Translations under genes and position numbers: made by a program | Shown: positions 11,832 through 41,627 of the stretch, in pieces | Layout of the letters: every line of letters begins with the position of its first letter | Position numbering within the stretch: position 1 is the first letter of the stretch | Assembly: GCF_037027445.1 (NCBI RefSeq) | Contig: NZ_JBANDL010000002.1 | Span: 3,472,001 to 3,536,000, forward strand | Reading direction: 5' to 3' | From: Lysobacter firmicutimachus | Lineage (GTDB): Bacteria; Pseudomonadota; Gammaproteobacteria; Xanthomonadales; Xanthomonadaceae | DNA length: 64,000 nt | Notes under the pieces: generated by a model | Databases searched by the model: none | The model's input: only the letters and a program-made list of their open reading frames with translations | What the model was told of the DNA's origin: nothing

Positions 11832-11844
11832 GGGCGCGCTCCGC

Positions 11845-12741
11845 TCAGGCCGCGACGCGCGCGTGCTGGCGCAGGCGCTGGAAGTACACGTCCTCCAGAT
11901 CCGGCTCGACCGGTTCGAATCCGGATTCGGGCGCCTCGGCGCTGAACACGTGGATCACCGGCTGGCCGCCGACCAGGCGCGTCGACAGCACGGTGAAGCG
12001 GGTCTCGTAGCTGGGCAGTTCGGCCTTGGTCACCCGCTTGCGCCAGACCTGCTCGCGCAGCGCGGCGATCGCCGCGGCCGGCTCGCCGGTCAGCAGCACC
12101 TTGCCCTTGTTGACGATCGCCATGGTCGGGCACAGATCGGTCACGTCCTCGACGATGTGGGTGGACAGGATCACCGCGACCTGCTCGCCGATCTCGGCCA
12201 GCAGGTTGAGAAAGCGATTGCGCTCCTCGGGGTCCAGGCCGGCGGTGGGCTCGTCGACGATCACCAGCCGGGGCTGGCCGAGCAGAGCCTGGGCGATGCC
12301 GAAGCGCTGGCGCATGCCGCCGGAGAAGGTGCCGAGTTTCTGCTTGCGCGCGTTCCACAGATTGACCTGGTGCAGCAAGCCGTCCACCACTTCGCGGCGC
12401 TGCCTGCGCTGGCTCAGGCCCTTGAGCACGGCGAAATGCTCGAGCAGGTCCTCGGCGCTGACCTTGGGATAGACGCCGAAGTCCTGCGGCAGGTAGCCGA
12501 GTTGGCGGCGCACGGTCTCCTTGTCGCGCAGCACGTCGATCGGCTTGCCGTCGGCGCCCTCCAGGGTGGCGCTGCCGGAGTCGGCCTCCTGCAGGGTCGC
12601 CAGGGTGCGCATCAGCGAGGACTTGCCGGCGCCGTTCGGGCCGAGCAGGCCGAACATGCCGCGCGGAATCTCCAGGCTGATGCCGTCGAGGGCGCGCACG
12701 CCATTGGCGTAAGTCTTGGTCAAATCGCGGATGGTCAGCAT
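11845..12741 (-). CDS. ABC transporter ATP-binding protein
   Basis: The product is 298 residues, an ABC ATPase with Walker A GPNGAGKS, signature FSGGMRQR, Walker B LVIVDEP followed by TAGLDPEERN, and switch His in ILSTHIVEDV. The C-terminal about 80 residues form the accessory extension common in ABC-2 exporters. I chose ATG 12741 (MLTIRDLTKTY), which has AGGGAACG upstream; a longer frame to 12789 adds residues unlike the family. It lies directly ahead of the permease/M1 fusion and should power it from the cytoplasmic face. Confidence 0.92.
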   Translation of the reverse strand: MLTIRDLTKTYANGVRALDGISLEIPRGMFGLLGPNGAGKSSLMRTLATLQEADSGSATLEGADGKPIDVLRDKETVRRQLGYLPQDFGVYPKVSAEDLLEHFAVLKGLSQRRQRREVVDGLLHQVNLWNARKQKLGTFSGGMRQRFGIAQALLGQPRLVIVDEPTAGLDPEERNRFLNLLAEIGEQVAVILSTHIVEDVTDLCPTMAIVNKGKVLLTGEPAAAIAALREQVWRKRVTKAELPSYETRFTVLSTRLVGGQPVIHVFSAEAPESGFEPVEPDLEDVYFQRLRQHARVAA

Positions 12742-12907
12742 CGCTCGTTCCCTGTCGTTGCCCGTTGGACGCGGCCGGCGGCCGCGCATGGCGGTCCGCG
12801 ACGCACGCGGACGTTTCCACGCAGATGCTAGCGACGGCGCGCACCGCGCCCATGGGCGGATGGTCTACGTGACCGATGGCAGGGGGCGGATTGTGACGCC
12901 AGCCGCG

Positions 12908-13861
12908 CTAGCCGGCGCCCGCGCGGTACTCGCGCGGCGACACGCCGTAGCGCTTCTTGAACGCTACCGACAAGTGGCTGTGGCTGGCGAAGCCGGCTTC
13001 CACGGCGATCGTGGCGATGTCCTGGTCGCTCTCGCGCAGGCGCAAACAGACCCGGCGCAGGCGCTCGCCGAGCACATACTGGATCGGGCTCGCGCCGAAT
13101 GCGGCACGGAACGCGATCAGCAGACGGTGCACGCTCAACCCGGCGATCTGGGCCAGTGCGGCCAAACGGATCGGCCGGTCCGAAGCCGGCTGTTCCAGAT
13201 GCGCGCGGATGTAGTCCTCGATGCGCCGCCGCTGGATCGGCGCGAGTTGCGGCGGCGGCGCGGCGTGCGCCGCCGCTCCCGCCGCGTACTCGCGCAGCAA
13301 GTGCAGGCCCAGGGCCTGGCCCAGCGCCTCGCGCAGCATCGCCGCCAGCTCGTCGCCGGCGCCGCTGAGCCCGGCCAGGCGCGCGGCCAGGCCGTGCACG
13401 AACGGATCGCGGTGCTTCATGCGCGCGCCGAGCCCGGCGGCGGCATCCCGGCAGGGACCGAAACGGGCCGGGTCGATATTGAACTCGGCGTAGGCGATGT
13501 CGCCGCCCAGCGCCTCGCCGCGGTACTGGCGCCCGGCCGGAATCAACCACAGGTCGCCGGCGGCGGGCGGCAGGCGCAGCCGGCCGGCGCCTTCGATGCG
13601 GGTGTCCAGGCGCCGCATCGCGCCGTCGAGATGGACGATCAGGGTGTGGCGGTCGTGCTGCAGCCGCCACTGGGTCGGCTCGGCGATGCTCTCGGCGGCG
13701 AAGGCGAAGTCCAGCCCCGGGGCCAGGCTCAGTTCGCGGTTGAACGCCAGCCGGCGCGCGCCGAGCCAGTCGCGCACCGCCGCCGCGCCCAGGGCCGCGT
13801 CGGCACGGGCGACGGCGCCGGCCGCAACGGCCGGCGGAGAAGTTGGAAGCGGTTCGGACAT
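12908..13861 (-). CDS. AraC family transcriptional regulator
   Basis: The product is 317 residues: an N-terminal sensor region with a cupin-like part (residues about 40-150) and a C-terminal AraC helix-turn-helix pair from about 215, with the diagnostic IATIAVEAGFASHSHLSVAF and KKRYGVSPREYR. I chose ATG 13861 (MSEPLPTSPP); the frame runs open to 14083 but would cover the divergent promoter. It is transcribed away from the SDR gene at 13977, with 115 bp between starts, so it probably controls that gene and itself. The effector is unknown. Confidence 0.87.
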   Translation of the reverse strand: MSEPLPTSPPAVAAGAVARADAALGAAAVRDWLGARRLAFNRELSLAPGLDFAFAAESIAEPTQWRLQHDRHTLIVHLDGAMRRLDTRIEGAGRLRLPPAAGDLWLIPAGRQYRGEALGGDIAYAEFNIDPARFGPCRDAAAGLGARMKHRDPFVHGLAARLAGLSGAGDELAAMLREALGQALGLHLLREYAAGAAAHAAPPPQLAPIQRRRIEDYIRAHLEQPASDRPIRLAALAQIAGLSVHRLLIAFRAAFGASPIQYVLGERLRRVCLRLRESDQDIATIAVEAGFASHSHLSVAFKKRYGVSPREYRAGAG

Positions 13862-13976
13862 CGTGGAAGCGCGGCAGGCCCGGGGCGAGCTAAACATGAC
13901 AGCAATCACATTCGTGTCAACACGCGGGACAGTCCCGTCCCGCGTCCCTCCCCGCCCCAAAAAACGGAGTCCCTCC

Positions 13977-14750
13977 ATGCCCGACCGTTCCCTCCACGGC
14001 AAGACCGTCGTCATCGGCGGCGGCGCCAAGAACCTCGGCGGCCTGATTTCGCGCGAGCTCGCCGCCGGCGGCGCTGCCGGCATCGCCGTCCACTACAACT
14101 CCGACGCCACCCGCGCCGCGGCCGAGGAAACCGTCGCCGCGGTGCGCGCCGCCGGCGCCGAGGCGTTCGCCCATCAGGGCGACCTGACCCGGCCGGCCGA
14201 GGTCGCCAAGCTGTTCGACGCGGCCCTGGCGGCGTTCGGCAAGATCGACATCGCCGTCAACACCACCGGCATGGTGATCAAGAAACCGCTGGTCGAGGTG
14301 ACCGAGGCCGAGTACGACCGCATGTTCGCGGTCAATTCCAAGGCGGCGTTCTTCTTCATCCAGGAGGCCGGCAAGAAGCTGGCCGACGACGGCAACATCT
14401 GCACCATCGTCAGTTCGCTGTTGGCCGCCTACACGCCGTTCTACGCCGTCTACCCGGGCAGCAAGGCGCCGATCGAGCACTTCACCCGCGCCGCATCCAA
14501 GGAACTCGGCGCACGCGGCATCTCGGTCAACGCGGTCGGCCCGGGGCCGATGGACACGCCGTTCTTCTACCCGGCCGAGTCGCAGGAGTCGGCGGCCTAT
14601 CACGCCACCGCCGCGGCGCTGAGCGGGCGCACCAAGAGCGGCCTGACCGAGATCCGGGACATCGCCCCGCTGGTGCGGTTCCTGGTCACCGAAGGTTGGT
14701 GGATCACCGGCCAGACCCTCTTCGCCAACGGCGGCTATACGACGCGCTGA
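13977..14750 (+). CDS. SDR family oxidoreductase
   Basis: The product is 257 residues, a classical short-chain dehydrogenase/reductase. The Rossmann glycine motif reads GGGAKNLGG near residue 14, the NAG-type segment is NTTGM, the catalytic Ser lies in SSLLAAYTP, and the Tyr/Lys pair is YPGSK. It should oxidise or reduce an alcohol/carbonyl with NAD(P)(H); the C-terminal GQTLFANGGYTTR is typical of the family. ATG 13977 has a GGAG upstream. The divergent AraC gene is the likely regulator. The substrate cannot be told from the sequence. Confidence 0.88.
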   Translation: MPDRSLHGKTVVIGGGAKNLGGLISRELAAGGAAGIAVHYNSDATRAAAEETVAAVRAAGAEAFAHQGDLTRPAEVAKLFDAALAAFGKIDIAVNTTGMVIKKPLVEVTEAEYDRMFAVNSKAAFFFIQEAGKKLADDGNICTIVSSLLAAYTPFYAVYPGSKAPIEHFTRAASKELGARGISVNAVGPGPMDTPFFYPAESQESAAYHATAAALSGRTKSGLTEIRDIAPLVRFLVTEGWWITGQTLFANGGYTTR

Positions 14751-15020
14751 CGCCGTCATGGACACAGCCCGTGCGGGTGCCGGCCGGAGCGACATCCGTT
14801 TCGACCGGCATCGCCGCAACATCGCAGGTTGCGTTGTCGCGGCAGGCCGGCGCCAGGGCGAAAAGAGCGAGCGCGTGTCCGGCCGCGCGCATTCGCGGAT
14901 GCGCCGCTCGGCCGCGCGCCGGCCCGTGCCGACGCCTGCACGCCGCCTGCACGCACTTGCGCCAACCATGCGCGCGACGGCCGCCGACGCCGCCTGTCGC
15001 GCTTTTTGCGGGGATACGCC

Positions 15021-15293
15021 ATGCACACCCTCCTGGTTCTGCTCGCCGGCTTCGCCCTGCTCGGCCTGTGCCTGCTGATCGCGCGCCTGGCCGGCGGTCC
15101 CGGCCGGACGCCGCAGCGCAAAGCGATCGTCGCCTTCGTGCCGCTGTGGCTGATCGGCGCCGGGATCAACCTCTGGGCCGGCGTGCATCACGCCGGCTAC
15201 AGCGTCGCCGACGAGCTGCCGATCTTCCTGCTGGTGTTCTTGCTGCCCGTCGTGGCTGCGCTGGCGCTACGATGGACGCTTTCGCGCCGCTGA
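15021..15293 (+). CDS. Small membrane protein, unknown function
   Basis: The product is 90 residues with three probable membrane helices (residues about 3-25, 38-55 and 66-86) linked by a short basic loop (PGRTPQRK). I do not recognise a family. Coding is supported by the hydrophobic pattern, a GGGGATA sequence upstream of ATG 15021 and its position just before the LtrA-like gene on the same strand (36-bp gap). Confidence 0.65.
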   Translation: MHTLLVLLAGFALLGLCLLIARLAGGPGRTPQRKAIVAFVPLWLIGAGINLWAGVHHAGYSVADELPIFLLVFLLPVVAALALRWTLSRR

Positions 15294-15329
15294 CTCCGGC
15301 CCCTCCCTCCCGCCAACCGCGGCCCATCG

Positions 15330-16526
15330 ATGACGACGTCTTCCCGCCCCACCCTGCTGCGCTCGCGCGAAGGCCACGCCAAAGTCGGCTTCAGCGAGCT
15401 TTTCTTCGACCTGGTGTTCGTGTTCGCGGTCACCCAGCTCTCGCACACTCTGCTCGAACACCTCGACACCGGCGGCGCGCTGCGCACCGGCCTGCTGTTC
15501 CTCGCGGTGTGGTGGCTGTGGATCTACACGTCCTGGGTCACCAACTGGCTGGACCCGGAAAAAGTGCCGGTGCGGCTGATGATCTTCGGCCTGATGCTGG
15601 GCGGACTGCTGCTGTCCTCGTCGCTGCCGCAGGCTTTCGGCGAACGCGGGCTCGCGTTCGGCGCGGTGTTCGCGGCGATGCAGGTCGGCCGCACGCTGTT
15701 CATGCTGTGGGCGCTGCGCGGCGGACGCAGTCCCGGCAATTTCCGCAATTTCCTGCGCATCCTGGTCTGGCTGTCGTTGTCGGCGCTGCTGTGGATCGGC
15801 GGCGGCCTGGCCGAACCGGAGCCGCGCCTGATCTGGTGGCTCGGCGCGGTCGCAATCGAATACCTCGGCCCGGTCGCCTATTTCCGCGTGCCCGGCCTGG
15901 GCCGTTCGAGCCTGGCCGACTGGGACGTGGAGGGCGGCCATCTGTCCGAGCGCTGCGGCTTGTTCATCATCATCGCCCTGGGCGAGTCGATCCTCATCAC
16001 CGGCGCGACCTTCGCCAAGCTGGACTGGAACCCCACCACCGTGACCGCGTTCTGCCTCGCCTTCCTCGGCAGCGTGGCGATGTGGTGGATCTATTTCGAC
16101 AGCGGCGCCGCGCGCGGCGAACACCGCATCGTCCACGGCGGCGACAGCGCGCGCCAGGCGCGCCTGGCCTATACCTACCTGCATCTGCTGATCGTCGGCG
16201 GCGTCGTCGTCTGCGCGGTGGCCGACGAACTGGTGCTGGTGCATCCCGACCATGCCGAGCCGGCCGGCATCGCCGCGATCGTCGGCGGCCCGGCGTTGTA
16301 CCTGCTGGGCTGCGCCTTGTTCAAATGGGTCACCAATACGCGCAGGTTCCCGCCGCTGTCGCATATGGCCGGGCTGGCGATGCTGGCGGCGCTCGCGCTC
16401 GCGGCGGCGCCGCTGCACCTGTCGGCACTGGCCCTGGGCGCGGCGACCACGGCCGTGTTCGTCGTCGTGGCGGCCTGGGAAACCGCGGCGCTGCGCCGCG
16501 GTCGCGCCGTCGCGCCGAGACACTGA
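15330..16526 (+). CDS. Low-temperature-requirement protein A (LtrA) family membrane protein
   Basis: The product is 398 residues with about ten to twelve membrane helices. The N-terminal KVGFSELFFDLVFVFAVTQL is the LtrA family signature, and the length fits. LtrA was named for growth of Listeria at low temperature; its biochemical role is not established. No clear ribosome binding site precedes ATG 15330, so the start is set by homology to the family N-terminus. Confidence 0.85.
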   Translation: MTTSSRPTLLRSREGHAKVGFSELFFDLVFVFAVTQLSHTLLEHLDTGGALRTGLLFLAVWWLWIYTSWVTNWLDPEKVPVRLMIFGLMLGGLLLSSSLPQAFGERGLAFGAVFAAMQVGRTLFMLWALRGGRSPGNFRNFLRILVWLSLSALLWIGGGLAEPEPRLIWWLGAVAIEYLGPVAYFRVPGLGRSSLADWDVEGGHLSERCGLFIIIALGESILITGATFAKLDWNPTTVTAFCLAFLGSVAMWWIYFDSGAARGEHRIVHGGDSARQARLAYTYLHLLIVGGVVVCAVADELVLVHPDHAEPAGIAAIVGGPALYLLGCALFKWVTNTRRFPPLSHMAGLAMLAALALAAAPLHLSALALGAATTAVFVVVAAWETAALRRGRAVAPRH

Positions 16527-29690: not shown

Positions 29691-29777
29691 GCCCATTCCT
29701 CGCGCAACCGCCAAACCCGTTCATCGCCTTCCCACGCCGGGTTGTTAAACTCGCCCATCCCCAGGATGGAATACGCG

Positions 29778-31793
29778 ATGTCGACCCTACGCCCGCTTGC
29801 CTGCGCCCTCGCCCTCAGCCTCATCGCCGGCCTCGCCTCGCCCGCCGCCGACGCCGCCAAGAAGAAGGCCGCCGCCAAGCCCAAGGCGCCCGCCGCGGCT
29901 TCCGCCTGCACCGACTTCTACGCCAGCGCCAACGCCGACTGGCTGCGCGCCAACCCGCTGTCCGGCGCCGGTTCGGTCTCGACCCTGGACCAGCTCGCCG
30001 CCAATGCGCGCAAGCAGCAGCTGGAGCTGCTCAACAGCGCCATGACCTCGCCGCAAGGCAATGTCCAGAAGCTGCTCGGCGACTTCTGGGCCAGCGGCCT
30101 GGACGAAGCGGCGGTCGAGCGCGACGGCGCCCAGCCGATCGCGCCGCTGCTGTCGCGCATCGGCGCGATCAAGAAGGCCAAGGACATCCCCGCCTCGATC
30201 GCCGCCCTGCACCAGGTCGGCATCCCGGTCGCGTTCAATTTCGGCGCCGACATCGACTTGCAGGACCTGGAACGCCACATCGGCTACTTCAGCCAGGGCG
30301 GCCTGGGCCTGCCGGACCCGGCCTATTACACCCGCAGCGACAACGACACCCGCCAGTTGCTCGGCCATTACAACAACTACGTGCAGAAGATCCTGGCCCT
30401 GACCGGCACGCCGAAGGACAAGCTGGCGGCCGAGTCGCAGCAGGTGATCGACCTGGAGACCCGCATCGCCCGCGCCTCCAAGTCGCTGCCGGACCTGCGC
30501 GACCCGCGCGCCAACTACGCCCGGGTGTCGGTGGCCGACGTCGGCAAGCAGTACAAGCGCCTGCAACTGGGCGATTTCCTCAAGGCCCAGGGCGTCAGCG
30601 ACGACAGCGTCTCGCTGGCCAACCCGCAGTTGTTCGCCCAGCTCGACAATCTGGTCGCCACGCTCAAGCCCGAGCAGTGGAAGACCTATCTGCGCTGGCG
30701 CGTCGGCGACGCGATGGCGCCGTACCTGGCCAAGCCCTTCCGCGACGCCGAGTTCGAATTCCGCGGCCGCGTGCTGCGCGGCCAGAGCGCGCCGCCGGCG
30801 CGCCAGCAGGCCGTGCTCGACGCCGTCACCCTCGCCGCCGGCCCGATGGTCGGCCACGAGTACGCCGCGCGCTATCTGCCGGCCGCCACCGACAAGCGCG
30901 CCGAGCAAATCGCCGATCAGGTCCGCGATGCCCTGTCCAAGTCGATCGACGCCGACAGCCGCTTCTCCGACGCGGTCAAGAACGAGGCCCGCGCCAAGCT
31001 GGCCAAGCTCAAGATCGAAGTCGGCACGCCCAAGCGCGACCTCGACTACACCGTGCAGCCGATGGGCCGCGGCAGCTTCGGCAGCAACATGCTGATCGCC
31101 TCGACCTGGCGCCACCGCGAAGAGATGAAGCGGATCGGCCGCGGCAACGCCGACCGCCGCTGGGACGTGCTGCCGCAGGAGCCGTCGCTGGCTTACGACA
31201 TCGCCCAGAACCGCCTGATCGTCACCGCCGCCATGCTGCAGGCGCCAGTGCTGGACCTGAGCAAGCCGGAAGCCGCGCAATACGGTTCCTACGGCGCGCT
31301 GGTCGGCGCCGAGCTGACCCACGGCTTCGACAACCGCGGCCGCTACGTCAATGCCAAGCAGGAAGTGCGCGACTGGTGGACGCCGAACGAAATCGCCGCC
31401 TGGGAGGCCCTGGGCAGCCGCGTCGCCGCCCAGTACAGCGCCGAGGCCTATCCGGGCCTGAGCGGAACCAAGGTCAACGGCAGCCAGGTGCGCGACGTCG
31501 CCATCGCCGACCAGGCCGGCTTGGAGATCGCCTGGAATGCGTACCGCAGCGCCGCGCCGTCGGCGGGCAAGGACGCCAACCAGGCCTTCTTCCGCGCCTG
31601 GGCCGGCCTGTGGGCGCAGCACCTGAGCCCGGAAGTCGCCGCCCAGCGTTCGGCCGCGGGCATCCACGCGCCGGGCCAGTGGCGCACCAACGTGCCACTG
31701 TCCAACCTGGCGGCGTTCGGCGAAGCCTTCGGCTGCAAGGCCGGCACGGCGATGCAGCGCAAGGCCGATCAGCAGATCAAGATCTTCCCCTGA
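29778..31793 (+). CDS. Degenerate M13 metallopeptidase homologue (probable pseudoenzyme)
   Basis: The product is 671 residues with a signal peptide (cleavage near PAADA) and M13 similarity along its whole length. The zinc site reads GAELTHG (AELTH 511-515): the first zinc His is Ala, though the catalytic Glu and second His remain. The ENIAD third-ligand motif is replaced by RDVAIAD, so the Glu ligand is also Asp-shifted. The downstream HAPGQWRTN segment with the substrate His and Arg is retained. The reading frame is clean, so this is a maintained protein rather than a decayed gene. It may bind peptides or partner the active paralogue just upstream. ATG 29778 has AGGATGGA upstream. Confidence 0.85.
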   Translation: MSTLRPLACALALSLIAGLASPAADAAKKKAAAKPKAPAAASACTDFYASANADWLRANPLSGAGSVSTLDQLAANARKQQLELLNSAMTSPQGNVQKLLGDFWASGLDEAAVERDGAQPIAPLLSRIGAIKKAKDIPASIAALHQVGIPVAFNFGADIDLQDLERHIGYFSQGGLGLPDPAYYTRSDNDTRQLLGHYNNYVQKILALTGTPKDKLAAESQQVIDLETRIARASKSLPDLRDPRANYARVSVADVGKQYKRLQLGDFLKAQGVSDDSVSLANPQLFAQLDNLVATLKPEQWKTYLRWRVGDAMAPYLAKPFRDAEFEFRGRVLRGQSAPPARQQAVLDAVTLAAGPMVGHEYAARYLPAATDKRAEQIADQVRDALSKSIDADSRFSDAVKNEARAKLAKLKIEVGTPKRDLDYTVQPMGRGSFGSNMLIASTWRHREEMKRIGRGNADRRWDVLPQEPSLAYDIAQNRLIVTAAMLQAPVLDLSKPEAAQYGSYGALVGAELTHGFDNRGRYVNAKQEVRDWWTPNEIAAWEALGSRVAAQYSAEAYPGLSGTKVNGSQVRDVAIADQAGLEIAWNAYRSAAPSAGKDANQAFFRAWAGLWAQHLSPEVAAQRSAAGIHAPGQWRTNVPLSNLAAFGEAFGCKAGTAMQRKADQQIKIFP

Positions 31794-31887: not shown

Positions 31888-34590
31888 TCAACGCAGCGCG
31901 AACGAATGCGCGATCGAGGTCTCGGTGTCGATGTCCAGCACCCGGCCGTGCGCATCGAACAGCAGCAAATGCCCGGCCTGCTCGCGCACCGCCACGCCCA
32001 GCCCGGGTTCGGGCCAGTCGATCTCGGCCACGGTCTGTCCGGACAGATTGAGCGCATAGGCGCGCGCCCGGCGTTCGTCCTGCAGCCAGGCCAGCAGGCC
32101 GGCGCCGAGCGTGCGCAAGGTATGCCAGAACGGCTGCGCCTGGCCGCTCGGCGCCGCCAACACGGCGCTGTGCCGGCGCCCGGCCGATTCGTAGGCCAGC
32201 AGCAGACCGCCCTCGGCCTGCGCATCGGCGAACACCGCCCAGGCTGCGCCCTGCGGGTGCAGATAGACCGACTCGCCCTCGCCCGGCGCGGCGATCGGAT
32301 TGCGCGAGACCAGCGCGCGGCGCGGCGCGGCGCGGTAATGCCAGGCCGAGGCGTACTCGCGTTCGCGCACCAGATAGACCTCGTCGCGGGCGAAGTACTG
32401 CGCCGCCGCCACCGGGCCGCCGAGATCGCCGACGCTCCACAGCGCGTCCAGCCCGGGCCGGGCCGCATCGAGCACGGCGATGCGCTCGTCGGCGACCACC
32501 GACCAGGCGATGCCGTCGTAGCGGTCGGCGAAGAACTGCAGGCGCATCGCACCGAGATCGTCGATGCGATGGCGAACCAGGTCCAGGCGCGAAACGCGTG
32601 CGATCGCATCGCGCCGGATCACCGCCAGCGCGACTTCGCCGCTGTCGCCGATCACCAGGTGCGAAGCCGGCACCGGATACCGGCGCAGGCTCTGCCCCTG
32701 GCGGTCGACCACCGCGACCCCGGCCTCGCCCAGTGCGACCAGATAGCGGCCTCCGCCGAGCGCGGCGACGTCGAGCGGGCGCTGCAAGCCGGCGGCGGGG
32801 TCCAGCCGCAGCCGCACCGGTTCGGCGCGTTCCCATAGCCGCTGGCGCACCAGCGGCGGCGTCTGCAACGCCGGCAGATCCGCTTGCAGCCAGGGGTCGC
32901 GCGACAGCTTCAGCAGCCGCTGCAATTGTCGGGCCTCCAGATCGTTGGCGCCGACCGCGCGGTCGGCCGCCAACGCCGGCAATACTCGCGTCGCCAACAA
33001 AGCCAATGCGCGGTTATGGCCCTTGTGCGCCGCCAATGCCTGTCCCAGCGCGGCGCGCGGCGGTGCCGGCGCGCCCGGGTCGGCCAGCGCCTCGATGCGC
33101 GCGGCGTAGTGCGCGAGCGTGTCCGGCAACAAGACCGCACGCTGCACCAGCGCCGCGGCCGACAATTCGGCGCCGGCGTTCTCGGCCGCCAGCAGCCAGC
33201 GTGCGGCCTGCTCGCGCGAGCCCGGGTCCGGCCACACCGCGTCCACCGCGGCCAACCAACGGCCCTGTTCGACCAGGGCCTGGCCCCACTCACGGCGCAG
33301 CGCCAGCGCGTGCTCGGGGTGCTCGCTCTCCAACATCGCCACCGCGCTGGCGAAGGCGCCGTCGCGGCGCGCGACCAGCACCGCGCGTTCGCGGTCGCCG
33401 GCCAGCATCAGCAAGCGGATCACCGTATCGGCCGGCATGTCCCAGCCCAGCGCCAGTTCGGCGGCCTGTACGCTGCGCTGGTGCCGGACCAGATAGTCCA
33501 AGGCCTCCTGGCGCACGTTGAGCAGTTCGGCCAGCACGAACGCGGCTTCGTCGATCCGGCCGTCGCGGTCCAGACGCTGGAACGCGGCGCGGTAGCGCTT
33601 GCGCAGCAGCTCGCGCGCCATGTCGCCGATGTCGATGTTGACGCCATAGGACGTCCCGCCGTGCAGGCCGAAATCGGCGCGCCGCCCGGGCAGACCGAAG
33701 CCGCGGCCGACGCCGGGTTCGTGACCGTCGATCGGCAGCGCGTGGCGCAGGGCTTCGAGCAGGTCGCCGCGGTCGAATTGCTGCATCAGCCGCCGCAGAT
33801 ACGCGCCCTGGCGCGCACCGAGCAGGCTCGAGGCACGGCTGGCGACGGCCAGGCGCTCCAGCCACTGCCGCCAGGCCGACGGCGGCGGCGGCGTCTGCCG
33901 CGCGGGCACGCCGCCGGCGCCCGAAGCCGTCGCCGGGCGGCCCGCGGCGGCGCTGCGGCGCAGCAGCCACGCGGCGACGCGCTCGCTCGGGCCGGCGACG
34001 CGCTGCCACAGCCCCGTACCGTCCTCGCGGCCGCGCGCAAGACGCTCGAGAAAGGCCGCGCGCTGCACGCTCGGCGCCGGCACGCGGTGACCGAAGACAT
34101 CGCGCAGCGGCTTGACCGCCAGGCGCTCGCGCCGGCCTTCGGCCACTGCATCGCTGCAATCGTAGGTCGGGTACAGAACGTAATCGTCGAGTTCGATCGC
34201 CGTCGACGGGTCCAAGGTTTCGCCCTGGCTGAGCTCGAAGCTGCGCAGAGCGCCGCCCAGGCTCAAATGCAGATCGGCCGGCGGCAACGCGGCGCGCTCG
34301 GCTTCGCTCAACGGGCCCGAGTACAGCGCATGCGCGCCGATCCGGCACAGCGGCAGGCCCGGCGCGCGCTCGCAGCGCAGCGGCCGCGGCGGATCGAAGC
34401 GCAGCAGGTCGCCCTCGGCGAAACGCCAGGCGCGGCAGCCCGGCGTCCAGGCCTGCAGGATGCGTCGCTCGCGCTGCGCCGGCGCCAGCCAGGCGGCGTC
34501 GAACCACAGCGCATCCACCCGCTGGCGTCCGCGCCAGACCGGATGGCGCGCGCGCGACGGCGCGTTCGCGACGGTGCCCGGCTCAGTCAT
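31888..34590 (-). CDS. bpX6-type beta-propeller protein of a MoxR-vWA-propeller ternary system
   Basis: The product is 900 residues with no signal peptide or membrane helix. Three regions can be seen: an N-terminal beta-rich domain (about 15-110, VWRGRQRVDALWFDAAWLAP) which I match from memory to the bpX6 family; a Pro/Arg-rich linker and helical-repeat region (about 310-590); and a C-terminal WD/PQQ-like beta-propeller (about 600-900) with recurring VA-x-LGGGRYLVALGEAGV-type blades. Its start overlaps the upstream gene by eight bases. In these systems the propeller is proposed to recruit targets to the MoxR ATPase. Function is inferred from locus architecture; no enzyme motif is visible. Confidence 0.72.
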   Translation of the reverse strand: MTEPGTVANAPSRARHPVWRGRQRVDALWFDAAWLAPAQRERRILQAWTPGCRAWRFAEGDLLRFDPPRPLRCERAPGLPLCRIGAHALYSGPLSEAERAALPPADLHLSLGGALRSFELSQGETLDPSTAIELDDYVLYPTYDCSDAVAEGRRERLAVKPLRDVFGHRVPAPSVQRAAFLERLARGREDGTGLWQRVAGPSERVAAWLLRRSAAAGRPATASGAGGVPARQTPPPPSAWRQWLERLAVASRASSLLGARQGAYLRRLMQQFDRGDLLEALRHALPIDGHEPGVGRGFGLPGRRADFGLHGGTSYGVNIDIGDMARELLRKRYRAAFQRLDRDGRIDEAAFVLAELLNVRQEALDYLVRHQRSVQAAELALGWDMPADTVIRLLMLAGDRERAVLVARRDGAFASAVAMLESEHPEHALALRREWGQALVEQGRWLAAVDAVWPDPGSREQAARWLLAAENAGAELSAAALVQRAVLLPDTLAHYAARIEALADPGAPAPPRAALGQALAAHKGHNRALALLATRVLPALAADRAVGANDLEARQLQRLLKLSRDPWLQADLPALQTPPLVRQRLWERAEPVRLRLDPAAGLQRPLDVAALGGGRYLVALGEAGVAVVDRQGQSLRRYPVPASHLVIGDSGEVALAVIRRDAIARVSRLDLVRHRIDDLGAMRLQFFADRYDGIAWSVVADERIAVLDAARPGLDALWSVGDLGGPVAAAQYFARDEVYLVREREYASAWHYRAAPRRALVSRNPIAAPGEGESVYLHPQGAAWAVFADAQAEGGLLLAYESAGRRHSAVLAAPSGQAQPFWHTLRTLGAGLLAWLQDERRARAYALNLSGQTVAEIDWPEPGLGVAVREQAGHLLLFDAHGRVLDIDTETSIAHSFALR

Positions 34591-36433
34591 CGCCGCCCTC
34601 GTAAACCAACACGTCCCGCCCTTGATGACGCAGGATCGTCAGCCGTCCGGACACGTCGATCAGGGCGATCGTATCGGCCGCCGCGGCGACGCTGGCGACG
34701 CTGATCTTCTGCGGGGATGCATACAGCGTGGTCCGTCCGCGTTCGCCGATCCGCACCACCGCCTTGCGGTCGGGATCGAGCGCGATCAGGGCCGGAGCGT
34801 CGGCCGAGACCGCCGCCAAGCCGACCACTTTCCACGCCGCGCTCAGCGCGAGCTCGAAATCCTGCAGGCCCTGCGACCGGCTGCGTCGCCACAGCCGCCA
34901 GCGACCGTGGCGCTCGCCGCCGCGTTGGCCGGCGGCGAACTCGACGGCGATGTCGCCCTGCCAACGATCGCCCCAGGCATTGCCGCAAAGGAAACCGACG
35001 CCGGCCTCGCCGTCGCAAGGCAGCGACTCCAGCGTTTCGACCCCAGCGCCATCGAACCGGCGCACCTGCACGCCCTCGCCGGTGCCTTGCAGGTAGAACG
35101 CACGCTGCGGCGGCAGAGCGACGAAACCGAGCACGTTCTCGCCGAGCAAACGGTAGCCGGGCCGATCGCAGCGGCGGCCGTTGCGCGGATGACGCGCGCT
35201 CCAGCACAGCAGACGGCTGCCGCTCCACAGCAGCAGGTGGCGTTGCTCGTCGTCGTTGCCGGCGATTTCCGCGCATTGCATCAGCCGCGCCTGCCCCGGC
35301 GCCGCATTGAGATGCTGCGGCAGCGGATGCGGCAGCCCGGGCCAATGGGCCAATTGCCAGGGATCGAGGAATTGCGAACGGGTCAGCACGCCGGCGAAAT
35401 GCCGTCCGCTCAGGCAGGCCGCAAGCAAGTGCCGGTGCTTGGCCCAGCGCGCGGTCTTCGGCGGCAGCAGGCGCTGCGGCTGGTGCGGCGGGCTCAAACG
35501 CTGCACATAGGCGGCGTTTTCGCCCGCCCACAGCGTCGCCACGGAGCGTCCGTCGGCGGCGATGATCGGGGGTTGCTGCCGCGACAGGCGGGCGTGGGCC
35601 GGTATTTTCTGCCGGCTCGCGGCTAGGCGCTCGAACTCGCCGCGCAGCAAGCGGCTCGACGGTTCCGGATCGGGCAGGCGCAACCGCAGCTCGCGCCGCG
35701 CCTGGCGCGCGGCGACGGTGACCGCGAGTTCGTCGGCATCGGCGCGCACCACGTCGACGCGATGGCCGAGCGCGTAGCCCGGCGCGTGCGCACCGACCGA
35801 CCAGCGTTCGCTCGGGCTCGGCTCGGCCGCATCCAGTGCCTGTGCCCACTGCGCGTGCAAGTCGCGGCCGAGATCGGCGCCCTGCTCGACGCTGGCGCGG
35901 GCGCTCGCGGCGCCGCCCGGAGTCAGGCTGCGCGCGCTCAGCAGGCGCTTGAGCGCCGCCGGCGAATCGGCCTCGTGCAGTTCGCCGGGCCGGGCCAGCA
36001 CGCCCCACAGGAAACGCGCGCCGGCGGCCTGGGCGCGTTGCGCCAGCAATATCCACAAGACGGCATGGACCAGCCGCGGCGCACCGAGCTGGCTCGGCCC
36101 GGCGTCGAACACCGCCACGGTCAGCGCATCGACCTGGCGCGCGACCGGCTTCGGATTCAAAAACAAATGCTCGCCGCCGGCGGCGCGCCGGTCGAACTCC
36201 TCCGGCGCCGCGTCGGCCAGCGCCCACTCGCTGAGCAGCAGGCGCTCGTAGGAACCGCGCCGGCGCAGATCCTCGATGCCTTCCGGTTCGGCCGCGCCGC
36301 GTTGCGCGCGCAGGCGGAACGCGCCCAGCGCCGGATGCAGGCGCAGCAACAGATCGCCGAGCACGCCGGCGATCTCGGCATCGAACCAGATCAACCACGG
36401 CGCCCAAGGCTGCAGCGTGTCGGGCAGGCGCAT
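34583..36433 (-). CDS. Degenerate vWA / beta-propeller protein of the ternary system
   Basis: The product is 616 residues. The first about 200 look like a vWA/DUF58-type Rossmannoid fold: YERLLLSEWALADAAPEEF leads to LTVAVFDAGPSQLGAPRLVH (104-123), where a MIDAS would read DxSxS; here it is DAGPS, so metal binding is doubtful. From about 270 the protein is a beta-propeller (repeated short blades such as LLLWSGSRLLCWSAR and ALIALDPDRKAVVRIGE). It lies two bases after the bpX-type gene and overlaps the next by eight, which indicates tight operon coupling. It probably bridges the MoxR ATPase and the propeller partner. The vWA call is inference. Confidence 0.62.
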   Translation of the reverse strand: MRLPDTLQPWAPWLIWFDAEIAGVLGDLLLRLHPALGAFRLRAQRGAAEPEGIEDLRRRGSYERLLLSEWALADAAPEEFDRRAAGGEHLFLNPKPVARQVDALTVAVFDAGPSQLGAPRLVHAVLWILLAQRAQAAGARFLWGVLARPGELHEADSPAALKRLLSARSLTPGGAASARASVEQGADLGRDLHAQWAQALDAAEPSPSERWSVGAHAPGYALGHRVDVVRADADELAVTVAARQARRELRLRLPDPEPSSRLLRGEFERLAASRQKIPAHARLSRQQPPIIAADGRSVATLWAGENAAYVQRLSPPHQPQRLLPPKTARWAKHRHLLAACLSGRHFAGVLTRSQFLDPWQLAHWPGLPHPLPQHLNAAPGQARLMQCAEIAGNDDEQRHLLLWSGSRLLCWSARHPRNGRRCDRPGYRLLGENVLGFVALPPQRAFYLQGTGEGVQVRRFDGAGVETLESLPCDGEAGVGFLCGNAWGDRWQGDIAVEFAAGQRGGERHGRWRLWRRSRSQGLQDFELALSAAWKVVGLAAVSADAPALIALDPDRKAVVRIGERGRTTLYASPQKISVASVAAAADTIALIDVSGRLTILRHQGRDVLVYEGGDD

Positions 36434-36435
36434 GC

Positions 36436-36852
36436 TCAGTCCCGCCAGTTCGCGCGGATGCGCGCCAGCAAGGCCGCGCTGGCCGGCAGCGCACGCTGCA
36501 ACGGCAGCAGCCGGCGCGGCGCGCGCAGCATCGCCAGCGGCGCCGGTCCGTGCCGGCGCGCGATCGCGCGCGCCAGCAGGTCCAACGGCAGGTCCGGCCG
36601 TTCGTGGGTCGGCAGCCACAAGGTCGTCGCCTCGGCGCGCGGCGCCAGATAGACCACGCCCTCGCACCAAGGCAAGGCCTCGGCCGCGCCGGCGACGATC
36701 AGGCTGTCGTCGTTGGCGGTCAACGCCAACGTCTCGCGCGCGGACGGCTCCAGCCGTTCGACCGCGTCGAGCAGACGCCGCGACGCCGCGCCGATGCCGA
36801 TCGCGCCTTGCGGCGCCGGCGGGGCCCCCTCAGCCCGCCAGTGCCAGTTCAT
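36436..36852 (-). CDS. Small bpX-type protein (bpX5-like) of the ternary system
   Basis: The product is 138 residues, soluble, with a mixed alpha/beta pattern: GAIGIGAASRRLLDAVERL, then VYLAPRAEATTLWLPTHE, and an Arg-rich C-terminal helix. I know of small proteins of this kind (bpX5, from memory) restricted to MoxR-vWA-propeller loci. Its start overlaps the MoxR stop (ATGA) and its stop is two bases before the next start. No catalytic motif is visible, and the assignment rests mostly on context. Confidence 0.6.
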   Translation of the reverse strand: MNWHWRAEGAPPAPQGAIGIGAASRRLLDAVERLEPSARETLALTANDDSLIVAGAAEALPWCEGVVYLAPRAEATTLWLPTHERPDLPLDLLARAIARRHGPAPLAMLRAPRRLLPLQRALPASAALLARIRANWRD

Positions 36853-37982
36853 ACCGGCGCCGATACCCGGGCGACCAGCCGGGCACGCTCGGCGGCCAGT
36901 TCGGGCGGAATCGAAGCGGCGTCGAAGTTGGCGTCGATCTCGCGCAGTACCGCTTCGGCGCCGGCGTGGTCGCCCGCGGCCGCCGCCAGGCAACCGCGCG
37001 CCGCCTCCAGCAGGCGCGCCTCGCGCGACAACGGCTGCAGCGCCGCGCATTCGACCGCCGCACGCAGGGTCGGATTGGCCGCCGCCGACAACGAGTCGCG
37101 CAGCGCATCCTGCGCCGCCGCCTGCGCCTCGCGGGTCGGCATGACGTAGAACAGCGGCCACAGATCGGCCTCGCCGGCGCGCTCGCGCCCGGCCAGCACG
37201 GCGGCCGCGGCGATCAGTCGCTGCGCCTTGACGATGCGCCGGTCCGACAGCCCCAGGCCGGCGCCACGCAGTTTGCGGATCGCGTCGGCCAGCAGGCCGC
37301 GCGCGGCGCCGAGATCGACCTCGTCGACGCAGCGGCTCAGGGTGTCGATGTCGGCCAGATCGGCGAAATGCTGCGGCGACGAACGGCCGGCCTGCCAACC
37401 GCCTTCGAGCAGCGCTTCCAACTGGTGGTCCGGCACCGGTTCGACGAACAGATGCAGCAGGAAGCGATCGGCGAACGCAGCCAGCGACTCGTCGTCGGGC
37501 AGAGCGTTCGCGGCGCCCACGCAGACCCGCAACGGACAGGCCAGCTGAGTGTGGCCGCGGCGGAAGCGGCGCTCGTTGAGCACGCCGAGCAAGGTATTCA
37601 GGATCGCAGTGGAACCGAGGAAGACCTCGTCCAGGAAGGCGATCTCGGCCTCCGGCAACATGCCGCTGACATCGGTTTCGACCACGCCCTCGCGCAGCCG
37701 GCGCAGGTCGACCGGGCCGAACAGTTCCGACGGCTCGGTGAATCGGCCGAGCAGGTACTCGAAATAGCGCCCGCCCAGGGCGGCGGCGACGCGGCGCACG
37801 ACCGCGCTCTTGGCGGTGCCGGGCGGGCCCAGGATCAGCAAGTGCTCCTGCGCCACGGCGGCGAGCACGATGAGTTCGGCGAGCTGTTCGCGTTCGACCA
37901 GCCCGGTGGTGGCGGAATGCACCGCTTCGCGGACGCGGGCGGCGGCCTGCTGCGCGGCGGAAAGTTCGTGCGGAGGCATCAT
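36849..37982 (-). CDS. MoxR/RavA-type AAA+ ATPase
   Basis: The product is 377 residues. AAA+ motifs are intact: Walker A GPPGTAKS (52-59), Walker B IAFLDE (114-119) followed by the RavA-like STAILNTLLGVLNERRF, sensor 1 GAANALPDDESL, and an ADRFLL arginine-bearing segment. The sequence is closer to RavA than to generic MoxR. MoxR ATPases act with vWA proteins as chaperone-like remodelers, in the cytoplasm. It is first in the leftward operon; ATG 37982 (tandem ATGATG) has AAGGA about ten bases upstream. It faces the rightward AAA+ gene across 227 bp. Confidence 0.9.
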   Translation of the reverse strand: MMPPHELSAAQQAAARVREAVHSATTGLVEREQLAELIVLAAVAQEHLLILGPPGTAKSAVVRRVAAALGGRYFEYLLGRFTEPSELFGPVDLRRLREGVVETDVSGMLPEAEIAFLDEVFLGSTAILNTLLGVLNERRFRRGHTQLACPLRVCVGAANALPDDESLAAFADRFLLHLFVEPVPDHQLEALLEGGWQAGRSSPQHFADLADIDTLSRCVDEVDLGAARGLLADAIRKLRGAGLGLSDRRIVKAQRLIAAAAVLAGRERAGEADLWPLFYVMPTREAQAAAQDALRDSLSAAANPTLRAAVECAALQPLSREARLLEAARGCLAAAAGDHAGAEAVLREIDANFDAASIPPELAAERARLVARVSAPV

Positions 37983-38209
37983 CGACGGCCGGAATCCTTG
38001 GCGTACGGGGACGACGGCACGCGGACCGCGGCCGGCCTCCCCAGGGCTGGCGTAGGGGCGCGACACCGGAACCCGGCGCCACCCGCGCACTGTAGGCGCG
38101 GGCATGCACGAATCGCAACCTGCGCCTCGTACGCTGAACGCGTCGCCGGTCTATCGTGTCCGGTTTTTCATTACCCTAGGCTGTCGCCACGCCCGGCCAG
38201 GACGCCGTC
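37983..38209. promoter_or_regulatory. Divergent promoter region between the two AAA+ operons
   Basis: The 227-bp gap between the two divergent start codons must hold both promoters. The stretch near 38150-38175 (CTATCGTGTCCGGTTTTTCATTACCC) is the only AT-richer part and is the best place for a rightward promoter. No operator palindrome was convincing. Confidence 0.5.
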
Positions 38210-39571
38210 ATGCCCGAAACTCCGCTCGAGGACCTGCTCGCCGCGCTCGCGGCCAGCCCGCACAATCCGGCCCTGGGCGCGTTGGTGGTCAACGCCTGCC
38301 TGAATGCCGCCGACCCGGACGCCCTGTTGCGCGCGATCGCGCTCGGCGGCGAGCCCCTGCTCGCCGACCCGGTACAGCGCGACGCCGCCTGGCGCTTGCT
38401 CCTGCAACACGGCCGCGATGCCGACGTGGCGCGCCTGGCGCCGGCCGGCACGGCCGCCTCGCTGCTGGCGCGTGCGCGCCTGAACCTGCAAGACGGCGCC
38501 CGCGACGAAGCGCGCGCGCTGTACCAGCAGGCGATCGCGCTGAACCCCGCACTCGAAGACGCGGCCTTGGCGAACGAACTGGCGGGCAAAGTGATTTCCC
38601 TGGCCAACGCGCGCCGGCAACACGAAGGCGCGCCGCGCCCGCAGACCAGCGTGGCCAACGACGACACCGATGCCGAGGACGTGGTGCGGCTGCTGCAGCC
38701 GGCGCAGGAGCGGATCGCGTTCGCCGACGTCGGCGGCCTGGACGAGGTCAAGCAGCAGATCCGCCGCCGCATCATCACCCCCTTCCTCAAGCCCTCGCTG
38801 TTCGAGCGCTTCAAGCGCCGTTCCGGCGGCGGCATCCTGCTGTACGGCCCGCCCGGCTGCGGCAAGACCCTGCTCGCCCGCGCCACCGCCGGCGAATGCG
38901 GCGCGCGTTTCTACAACGTCGCCATCACCGACGTACTCGACATGTACATCGGCGAATCCGAGCGCAAGCTGCACGCGATCTTCGAGCAGGCGCGTCGCAC
39001 CGCGCCGTCGGTGGTGTTCTTCGACGAGGTCGAGGCGATCGGCGGCAAGCGCCAACACTCGCGCGAGGCCGGCTCGGCCAAGCTGGTCAGCCAGTTCCTG
39101 ACCGAACTGGACGGCTTCGGCCAGAACAACCAGGGCGTGCTGATCCTCGGCGCGACCAACGTGCCCTGGGCGGTGGATTCGGCGTTCCGCCGCCCCGGCC
39201 GCTTCGACCGGGTGCTGTTCGTGCCGCCGCCGGACGAGCCCGCGCGGCGTGCGATCCTGGACTTGCTGCTGCGCGATCGTCCGCTCGACGGCGCGATCGA
39301 CAGCGCCGAACTGGCGCGTCTGAGCTCGGGCCATTCCGGCGCCGACCTGCGTCACCTGGTCGAAAGCGCGATCGACGAGGCGATCGACGATTCCATCGAC
39401 CAGGGCCGCGAAGTGCCGCTGAGCATGGCCCATCTGCGCGCGGCGCTGAAGGACAGCCGCGCCACCACGCTGGAATGGCTGACCACGGCGCGCAATCACG
39501 CCCGCTACGCCAATCAGGGCGGCCAGTACGACGAAGTGCTGGACTTCCTCAAGCGCCACGGGGGCGGCTGA
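38210..39571 (+). CDS. Cdc48/FtsH-like AAA+ ATPase with helical N-terminal domain
   Basis: The product is 453 residues. Residues 1-150 are helical, with a TPR-like unit (ARDEARALYQQAIALNPALE). Residues 165-420 are a classical AAA domain: Walker A GPPGCGKT (213-220), pore-loop segment DMYIGESERK, Walker B VVFFDE (268-273), sensor 1 GATN, and arginine fingers in RRPGRFDR (327-334). It has no peptidase domain or membrane helix. It should unfold or remodel protein substrates using ATP. It leads the rightward operon and overlaps the following gene by one base. Confidence 0.87.
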   Translation: MPETPLEDLLAALAASPHNPALGALVVNACLNAADPDALLRAIALGGEPLLADPVQRDAAWRLLLQHGRDADVARLAPAGTAASLLARARLNLQDGARDEARALYQQAIALNPALEDAALANELAGKVISLANARRQHEGAPRPQTSVANDDTDAEDVVRLLQPAQERIAFADVGGLDEVKQQIRRRIITPFLKPSLFERFKRRSGGGILLYGPPGCGKTLLARATAGECGARFYNVAITDVLDMYIGESERKLHAIFEQARRTAPSVVFFDEVEAIGGKRQHSREAGSAKLVSQFLTELDGFGQNNQGVLILGATNVPWAVDSAFRRPGRFDRVLFVPPPDEPARRAILDLLLRDRPLDGAIDSAELARLSSGHSGADLRHLVESAIDEAIDDSIDQGREVPLSMAHLRAALKDSRATTLEWLTTARNHARYANQGGQYDEVLDFLKRHGGG

Positions 39572-40044
39572 TGGCGGCCTCGGTCTATCGCCTGCCCGAC
39601 GAACCGCTGCCGTCGGGCCTGTCGCGCTACGCGGTCGATCCGCTGTGGCCGATGCTGACCCTGATGCTGGCCGGCAACGGCTTCGGCCTGGCCTGGTTCG
39701 CGTTCAACGGTTTCGCCCTCGGCAGCCCGACCCGCGGCCGCGAACTGGCCTTGCTGGCGCTCAACCTGGCCGGCGCGATCGCGCTGCTGTGGCTGCTGGG
39801 CGCGCTCAGCCAGGCCGGCTGGCTGCCGCGCCAGTACATGGAGTACGCCTTGCTGTCGGTGATCACGCTCAAGCTGGCCACCGGCTACGCGCTGTACATG
39901 ATGCAGCAGCGCTGCTTCGAGCTGTGGGAGTACTACGGCGGCATGGCGCGCAACGGCCTGCCGTTGCTGATTCTCGCGACCCTGTTCGCGCGCCGCCTGT
40001 TCGATCTGCAATGGCCGGCGCTGCTGCGCATGGTGCTGGAATGA
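39571..40044 (+). CDS. Four-helix membrane protein, unknown function
   Basis: The product is 157 residues with about four membrane helices (near 28-48, 60-82, 92-110 and 127-145) and a short soluble N-terminus. I recognise no family. Its ATG shares a base with the upstream TGA (TGATG), and the TPR gene starts 16 bp downstream, so it is translationally coupled to both. It may anchor the AAA+ ATPase to the membrane; this is inferred from context. Confidence 0.7.
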   Translation: MAASVYRLPDEPLPSGLSRYAVDPLWPMLTLMLAGNGFGLAWFAFNGFALGSPTRGRELALLALNLAGAIALLWLLGALSQAGWLPRQYMEYALLSVITLKLATGYALYMMQQRCFELWEYYGGMARNGLPLLILATLFARRLFDLQWPALLRMVLE

Positions 40045-40060
40045 CCCCGGAGCCGCGCGC

Positions 40061-40993
40061 ATGAGCCTGGACATGTCCCGTCACGCCCTCGCTCTGGCCC
40101 GCCGTCACTACGGCCACGGCCAGGTCGACCAAGCCATCGACGTGCTGCTGCGCCTGCTCGGCGAAGACCCCGATCTCGCCGAAGCGCACGCCCTGCTCGC
40201 GTTCTGCCTGCTCAAGCGCAAGCGCCTGCACGTGGCCGCGCTGGAAGCCGCGCGCGCGCTCGAGCTGGAGCCCGACTCGGTGTATTCGCACCTGGCCGCA
40301 GCGCTGGTCGCGATCGCGCGCCGGCGACTGAGCGAGGCCGAAACCCACTTGAACGCGGCGCGCGAACTCGATCCGGCCGCGGCGGTGATCGAAGACGGCT
40401 TCGCCCGGCTGCACCTGGCCTGGGGCCACGACGAACGCGCCCTGGCGCATGCGCGCCGCGCCTGCGAGCTGGAACCCGACGATCTCGACTACCGCGCCCT
40501 GCTCGCCAGCCTGGAGTTCCGCCGCGGCGACCGCGGCACGGCCGAAGCTTTGGCGCGCGAAGTGCTGGAGCTCGACCCCGAGCATCTGGAAGCGCTGTGC
40601 GTGCTCGGTCATTGCGAACTCGCCGCCGGCCGCGTCGACGACGCGCGCCAGCACGCCGCCTGGGCGGTGCAGTTGGACCCGATGGACGAACAGGCCTTGA
40701 CCCTGCTGGCCGCGGTCAAGGCCCGGCGCAGCCCGCTGCTGGGCCTGTGGTGGCGCTTCCAGAGCTATCTGACCGCCGGCTCGCGCACCCGCACCGTCGT
40801 CCTGCTGCTGGGCCTGTTCCTGCTCTACCAGATCGGCATGATCGCACTGAGCCAAAACGGCCTGCAGCGCTGGACCCTGCCCTTGTCGCTGCTGTGGCTG
40901 GGCTTCTGCGCCTACACCTGGATCGCGCCGGGGCTGTTCTGGCGTTCGGTGAAGAAGGAATTGCAACAGGTGAGGTTGCGGCCGGGCTTCTGA
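40061..40993 (+). CDS. TPR protein with C-terminal membrane helices
   Basis: The product is 310 residues. About six TPR units fill residues 1-230 (for example DQAIDVLLRLLGEDPDLAEAH and EALAREVLELDPEHLEAL). Two hydrophobic helices follow near 245-265 and 272-290. The TPR array should face the cytoplasm and bind partner proteins, plausibly the AAA+ ATPase two genes upstream. It ends the rightward operon; repeats follow. Confidence 0.83.
   Translation: MSLDMSRHALALARRHYGHGQVDQAIDVLLRLLGEDPDLAEAHALLAFCLLKRKRLHVAALEAARALELEPDSVYSHLAAALVAIARRRLSEAETHLNAARELDPAAAVIEDGFARLHLAWGHDERALAHARRACELEPDDLDYRALLASLEFRRGDRGTAEALAREVLELDPEHLEALCVLGHCELAAGRVDDARQHAAWAVQLDPMDEQALTLLAAVKARRSPLLGLWWRFQSYLTAGSRTRTVVLLLGLFLLYQIGMIALSQNGLQRWTLPLSLLWLGFCAYTWIAPGLFWRSVKKELQQVRLRPGF

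Positions 40994-41627
<634 letters not shown>

Follow-up and report, generated by a model that had tools for sequence, protein, structure and literature searches.

The window analyzed here is a 64,000-nucleotide stretch of Lysobacter firmicutimachus DNA (RefSeq assembly GCF_037027445.1, contig NZ_JBANDL010000002.1, positions 3,472,001 to 3,536,000; source genome, 5.32 Mb, designated G000). It contains a locus of seven genes, all present at the coordinates in Table 1, which are split into two separable, divergently oriented units. Unit A encodes a MoxR AAA+ ATPase, bpX5, a protein that we call P3, and a bpX6 protein, and unit B encodes a Cdc48-like AAA ATPase and two membrane proteins. The genes of unit A overlap by 4 and 8 bp at two junctions and are separated by 2 bp at the third. 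The original prediction, made from the sequence of the window, had proposed a four-gene MoxR/bpX/propeller operon, and a profile hidden Markov model (HMM) search bore this out, with clear matches to bpMoxR, bpX5 and bpX6. The C-terminal beta-propeller of P3 is a module that has been replaced wholesale by recombination between close relatives, while the flanking parts stayed put. This observation, together with the wide conservation of unit A and the separability of unit B, is the subject of this report.

Table 1. Features of the locus (window coordinates; values such as 3.5e-91 are E-values of profile matches)
Feature	Position	Strand	Description
Unit A	31888-37982	minus	MoxR ATPase (bpMoxR), bpX5, P3 (616 aa, unannotated), bpX6
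Unit B	38210-40993	plus	Cdc48-like AAA, small membrane protein, TPR (tetratricopeptide repeat) membrane protein
Divergent intergenic region between units A and B	37983-38209		227 bp, from coordinates
MoxR AAA+ ATPase (bpMoxR), unit A	36849-37982	minus	377 aa; Pfam PF20030, 3.5e-91
bpX5, unit A	36436-36852	minus	138 aa; Pfam PF19921, 2.9e-46
P3, unit A	34583-36433	minus	616 aa; conserved N-terminus 1-95, vWA (von Willebrand factor A)-like part 96-265, C-terminal beta-propeller 270-616
bpX6 protein, unit A	31888-34590	minus	900 aa; bpX6 domain 15-183 (Pfam, 4.4e-57), helical solenoid ~230-575, beta-propeller ~590-900
Cdc48-like AAA ATPase, unit B	38210-39571	plus	453 aa; PF00004, 8.2e-41; weak N-terminal TPR_2, 0.0021
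Small membrane protein, unit B	39571-40044	plus	157 aa; ~four helices by eye
TPR protein with hydrophobic C-terminal part, unit B	40061-40993	plus	310 aa; TPR families, up to 6.1e-16
M13-type peptidase gene flanking the locus	29766-31793		Peptidase_M13_N, 1.4e-86 (Pfam)
Rhomboid gene flanking the locus, beyond unit B			1.8e-29

Scanning a single genome for each species gave 345 relatives of the window MoxR, of which the best 80 were kept with their flanks (the named loci); their genes were taken from tblastn-based open reading frames and seeded gene calls. The order MoxR-bpX5-P3-bpX6 is conserved, with bpX5 at 79, P3 at 78 and bpX6 at 77 of the 80 loci, and the missing genes fall at contig ends. 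The loci come from Lysobacter, Xanthomonas, Pseudoxanthomonas, Tahibacter, Stenotrophomonas, Pseudomonas, Chromobacterium, Variovorax, Massilia, Janthinobacterium, Duganella, Achromobacter, Proteus and other genera. Among these best 80 of 345, the closest named record at the locus is Lysobacter antibioticus HS124 (L094), whose MoxR is 99% identical. In Xanthomonas phaseoli pv. phaseoli ATCC 49119 (L104, about 10001-16064), bpX5, P3 and apparently bpX6 are short or split and the MoxR frame is full. A fifth gene of unit A was considered and rejected, as no neighboring cluster recurs across distant genera at the 80 loci. Among the two nearest genes on each side of unit A, no cluster is shared by more than 7/80 loci, and the recurring ones are mostly from one genus or close genera; the most frequent is a LysR-like cluster (cluster 4; six Pseudomonas and one Duganella). 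Within 10 kb at any distance, generic families are more widespread: among the first 40 clusters, cluster 4 occurs at 14 loci and the two-component-like clusters 5 and 6 at 12. The latter pair, recognized from N-termini, with no family scan made, lies at variable distance upstream of MoxR in 10 Pseudomonas, one Rugamonas and one Duganella (L120, L128, L130, L132, L138, L149, L150, L151, L155, L168, L169 and L173). The lack of a neighbor shared by distant genera counts against a classical defence island, no defence-family scan of the flanking genes having been made.

Conservation within P3 is uneven. Across 89 homologues, mean identity to the window protein falls from 63% (residues 1-95) to 46% (96-265) and 24% (270-616). 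In 90 sequences, 24 positions are invariant, of which 12 lie in residues ~41-100 and none in the propeller. In the predicted structure, residues ~41-100 appear poorly folded alone, with a low predicted local distance difference test score (pLDDT).

Replacement of the propeller is seen between close relatives. At the protein level, genome G563 is 98-99% identical to G090 and G138 in MoxR, 97-98% in the N-terminal part of P3 and 88-94% in bpX6, and 46-48% in the P3 propeller (the G563/G090 propeller value is 45, 46 or 48% depending on the alignment, and other pairs likewise vary by a few points). Among the three genomes, the AAA proteins are 97% identical, the flanking M13 proteins 98-99% and the bpX6 segments 88-97%. 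In an 11.5-kb alignment of G090 and G563, DNA identity is 58% within the block that encodes P3 residues ~250-616 and 94% beyond it; divergence at fourfold-degenerate sites is 0.44 in that block, compared with 0.09 across the remainder of unit A. In 150-base windows, identity is 85-100% outside, 75% near P3 residue 247, 45-66% over the rest of P3 and 95% at the start of bpX6. The propeller has a synonymous divergence (dS) of 1.10, compared with 0.09-0.28 for the other parts. Comparison of G138 with G090 revealed a second block at P3 residues ~151-210, with a dS of 1.15 for residues 131-235. The propeller of G564 is 39-42% identical to those of three relatives, and every other segment 70-97%. 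The third component shows an exchange of its own in the Pseudomonas loci L149 and L153, whose bpX6 propellers are 98% identical with a dS of 0.076, the rest of unit A having a dS of 0.39-0.86. In another Pseudomonas pair (L150/L155), bpX5 is 82-87% identical and the other segments 99-100%, with a ratio of nonsynonymous to synonymous divergence near 1; a frame or alignment problem confined to this gene might be the cause.

An unselected test took eight segments of unit A and compared each with the remainder at fourfold-degenerate sites in 933 pairs of 81 genomes. These are the genomes with every segment among 90 sources; L104, L165, L166 and L170 were excluded deliberately, and others because genes were short or truncated. 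Five of 7006 tests were significant after Bonferroni correction at 0.01, and all five concern propellers (four P3 raised, one bpX6 lowered). The four P3 hits comprise G563 twice and L097 twice and represent about two events, the pairs sharing genomes. P-values for the blocks in G090/G563 and G138/G090 refer to blocks picked after inspection. In 106 of the 114 pairs with MoxR at least 90% identical, the least identical of the eight segments is a propeller (P3 in 70, bpX6 in 36). Larger protein sets were compared as well. They consist of the best 120 listed of 153 (P3) and 393 (bpX6) hits, clustered at 90% identity, plus 15 Lysobacter each; some Lysobacter are represented by two entries (P0028 is identical to G563 over the parts compared), and the pair counts are not frequencies in nature. 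Among the 135 P3 proteins, 172 pairs are at least 93% identical over residues 1-130, and in 53 of these the propellers are at most 65% identical; the 53 pairs come from 6 of the 19 N-terminus clusters. The reverse, a diverged N-terminus behind propellers at least 93% identical, occurs in none of 13 pairs, and the count for bpX6 comparable to the former is 1/38.

The source of the incoming propellers was considered next to these data. Each of seven Lysobacter genomes gave a single P3 match, so that the donor was probably another strain in these seven. The reverse transcriptase family RVT_1 has no match in five Lysobacter genomes. Taken together, one P3 per genome and no RVT_1 indicate that the exchange in these Lysobacter is explained neither by an archive within the genome nor by a diversity-generating retroelement (DGR). 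RVT_1 has one match in the L149 genome and five in the Massilia rubra genome, none of the latter on the contig of the locus. The Massilia genome gave four P3 matches. In M. rubra (L165, 11547-19753), a tandem array of five P3 copies separates bpX5 from bpX6. Copies D and E share 99% identity in residues 1-95 but 33% in their propellers, copy B consists solely of a propeller (13214-14383), and copy A is without most of the conserved segment. Massilia mucilaginosa (L166, 11553-14965) has two tandem copies behind bpX5, the first of which is also without most of the conserved N-terminal segment.

The MoxR protein has the P-loop GPPGTAKS together with FLDEV, DRF and SDRR, which we take to be Walker B, the Arg-finger position and the sensor-2 region, respectively, and all four motifs are identical in 10/10 aligned homologues. 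Unit A belongs to subsystem 4 of the ternary systems that Kaur et al. (2020; PMC7159879) predicted, the beta-propeller MoxR-vWA class, its vWA being unconfirmed. The part of that paper on ternary systems describes a MoxR P-loop variant, GXXXTAKS, which GPPGTAKS fits, and the Pfam models bpMoxR, bpX5 and bpX6, which bear the name of the published system, cover three of the four unit A proteins. The proposal that the locus belongs to the MoxR-vWA-propeller class thus holds for the match to the published class, P-loop included, and profile searches left its vWA component unconfirmed.

The other half of the locus, unit B, had been combined with unit A into one seven-gene system with two AAA+ motors. 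That combination did not survive wider sampling. Unit B stands beside MoxR at only 6/80 named loci, all Lysobacter (five of the 80 hold less than 2 kb upstream, which limits this count). In a class sample of 369 genomes, the AAA (E <= 1e-60) occurs in eight, bpX6 (E <= 1e-5) in four and both in two, one of which is the window genome and the other of which has them on different contigs. In a family sample of 198 genomes, MoxR (E < 1e-80) and a near-full-length AAA (at least 67% identity) each occur in 11, both in seven, and adjacent in five; unit A lies among other flanking genes in 5/11 family genomes carrying it. In a genus sample of 20 genomes, MoxR is present in 16 and the AAA in 15, and unit A sits at one locus in 15/16 carriers (in G116, the flank is on another contig). 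The interval between the M13 and rhomboid genes holds both units side by side in 14 genomes (the rhomboid gene of G116 being on another contig), only unit A in G173, only unit B in G048 (a different genus) and in G571, where unit A lies at a distance of ~195 kb, and nothing of either in four Lysobacter genomes. The occurrence of empty, B-only, A-only and combined states at one spot indicates that the units were joined by insertion or loss in one lineage. In six genomes (L228, L061, L063, L067, L068 and L069), unit B follows the M13 peptidase gene directly and co-directionally, and unit A is elsewhere or absent; this arrangement suggests an older link between the M13 gene and unit B. The adjacency of the units is therefore lineage-specific, as the synteny check that had been proposed made evident, and unit B is not part of unit A. 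An obligate seven-gene system is ruled out by the named-locus, class, family and genus distributions. A looser version, in which the two motors cooperate at the locus, appears very unlikely: the adjacency in 14/20 genus genomes, the AAA in two of four bpX6 carriers of the class sample and a co-occurrence in 7/198 family genomes that exceeds chance for two sets of 11, kinship disregarded, speak for it, and the separate states and the M13 gene-unit B arrangement described above speak against it. Setting unit B aside removes a gene set that would mislead experiments at this locus, and within the literature searches made the separability of the neighboring Cdc48-like cassette seems to be new.

The AAA ATPase of unit B matches the CDC48 profile of NCBIfam (6.5e-62; under the cut-off) and has a VCP-like match at 4e-105. 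It also matches IetA of PADLOC at 1.3e-29; the partner of IetA-type AAA proteins in the IetAS defence system is presumably the subtilase IetS, and no search aimed at a subtilase was made. The 157-aa protein has no match in Pfam, NCBIfam or PADLOC. In a crude hydropathy scan it has one segment above 1.6 (maximum 2.24), and the 310-aa TPR protein reaches 2.33 at residues 243-265. Between unit B and the rhomboid gene lies a short, leucine- and valine-rich frame (41108-41227) that resembles a simple DNA repeat.

Because close relatives replace the P3 propeller wholesale, it is likely to be the recognition part. We consider that unit A may be a resident chromosomal, MoxR-driven recognition machine with the P3 propeller as its polymorphic sensor, with a probability of about one half. 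MoxR proteins are known as a family to form rings. In the proposed mechanism, P3 residues ~41-100 would dock on the MoxR ring, and the propeller would bind a strain-specific ligand that is most probably foreign, such as a protein of a phage or competitor. MoxR would then use ATP hydrolysis to remodel the complex of P3 with bpX5 and the solenoid-propeller scaffold of bpX6, which may expose or deliver an output not recognizable by sequence; bpX6 itself could be scaffold or output. A conflict role for unit A is likely, although unproven. The idea of a target-recruiting conflict system gains support from the propeller exchange, and direct evidence of defence was not obtained, PADLOC giving only weak matches to unit A (best 5.9e-4, MoxR). 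A more specific version is that P3 is an antigen-receptor-like sensor whose constant N-terminus is fitted by recombination with propellers from other strains, and that in some Massilia several alternatives, one of them a bare propeller, are lined up in the operon. We regard this version as tentative; if true, it would mean that a repertoire can be built without a DGR. In either case, the exchanged propeller is a concrete candidate for the recognition part, in two Lysobacter that otherwise differ by ~6% at the locus.

Several observations weigh against a recognition machine of this kind. No recognized effector is found in the module. Searches with bpX6 found no match in 50,697 phage records and one, over 24% of its length, in 72,556 plasmid records, and unit A is near-core in the genus (16/20), which sets it apart from many mobile defence systems. 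The other two candidate exchanges (G564 propeller; G138 residues 131-235) were not significant after Bonferroni correction, and the docking step would draw on conservation and low pLDDT. The vWA of P3 is also not confirmed statistically. Pfam detected no vWA family in P3 among the seven locus proteins, nor in 10 P3 members, whose three weak matches are all to other families, and comparison of P3 with PDB sequences gave no significant vWA match. Among 27 CoxE-model hits, hhalign of P3 against the 25 with a motif like that of the metal ion-dependent adhesion site (MIDAS) reached a probability of 0.5% with the MIDAS strand aligned, and no comparison was significant; reversed and five shuffled P3 controls scored below real P3. 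The vWA-like part is a strand-helix-strand element in the predicted model, and Asp110 and Gly112 are invariant in 90 sequences. The match lists of VIA-align and Foldseek for the P3 structure are taken up by propellers and so bear on that domain alone.

Other readings of unit A have to be considered beside that of a polymorphic recognition machine. It may be a housekeeping chaperone that assembles or matures a host complex, like RavA-ViaA or CoxD-CoxE, its propeller tracking a strain-variable client. RavA proteins are the only solved MoxR relatives, and the near-core status, the fixed locus and the sparse phage and plasmid records fit such a role; however, no candidate client gene recurs beside the module across distant genera, and wholesale swapping of the propeller with little change in MoxR, bpX5 and bpX6 would, in our judgement, be unusual for a maturation factor. 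We therefore think this explanation rather unlikely. Many genera with unit A are soil- and plant-associated. In social or predatory Lysobacter and their relatives, the propeller could mark strain identity for self or kin recognition instead of sensing phages. Recombination-driven polymorphism at one domain of a module resident in many genera speaks for such a marker, but the crude hydropathy scan gave no surface anchor (maxima of 1.61 in P3, within the propeller, and 1.33 in bpX6; no signal-peptide prediction was made), and the proposal seems improbable.

Fast or relaxed evolution, with no exchange, would account for a propeller being the least identical segment in most close pairs; fast change is indeed general, and exchange is shown for few pairs only. 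It does not account for the G090/G563 block, where dS inside exceeds that outside 4- to 12-fold and the edges are sharp, or for the lowered synonymous divergence of the L149/L153 bpX6 propeller, and we consider it highly improbable as the sole cause. A polymorphic recognition machine remains our preferred reading.

Comparison with known systems places unit A among MoxR ternary systems with features of its own. Among the matches listed, literature searches returned neither an experimental test of any bpX system nor a description of propellers being exchanged. In E. coli, RavA-ViaA also relies on a MoxR-family ATPase, and the relatives of unit A MoxR with solved structures (E <= 1e-3) are three distinct sequences, all RavA. 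However, unit A MoxR scores 162 bits, and the cut-off of the NCBIfam RavA equivalog is 681; P3 lacks an HMM-detectable vWA; and the partners are bpX5 and bpX6 (no ViaA-model search was made elsewhere in the genome). In the FtsH ternary systems (subsystem 3), as outlined in the corresponding section of the 2020 paper (PMC7159879), a second AAA+ gene also lies near the MoxR system, but there the third component has two FtsH-type AAA domains, the first inactive, whereas the unit B AAA has one Cdc48-like domain in a separable cassette not found at 74/80 MoxR loci. Genes annotated as ravA, bpX5, a further group and bpX6 are listed in one region, RGP_32, of Pseudomonas syringae clade 2b-a, as clade-unique orthologous groups to which the relevant passage assigns no function (PMC9677677).

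The closest counterpart, subsystem 4, shares the GXXXTAKS MoxR, a second component with a C-terminal propeller (here behind a vWA-like part) and, as in bpX6, helical repeats followed by a C-terminal propeller in the third component (PMC7159879). The section describing it gives approximately four propeller blades, whereas the predicted P3 model has 27 strands in residues 271-612, nearer to seven. According to it, the third component also crosses the membrane in its N-terminal region, which we regard as a usual trait of the class and not a defining one; in bpX6, the crude scan found no segment above 1.6. The same section points to variability at the N-terminus of the third component, whereas here the variable, exchanged part is the propeller of P3, and its identification as the exchanged part of the second component seems, within the literature searches made, to be new. 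In DGR-bearing ternary systems, a vWA protein with a variable ligand domain has been proposed, in the part of that work dealing with them, as an antigen sensor upstream of a MoxR relay (PMC10907252). The sensor-relay logic of these DGR-diversified VMAP systems of Thiohalocapsa and cyanobacteria would resemble that of unit A, in which the variable domain is a propeller and not CLec, and in which variation comes by module exchange, with no RVT_1 in 5/5 Lysobacter genomes searched.

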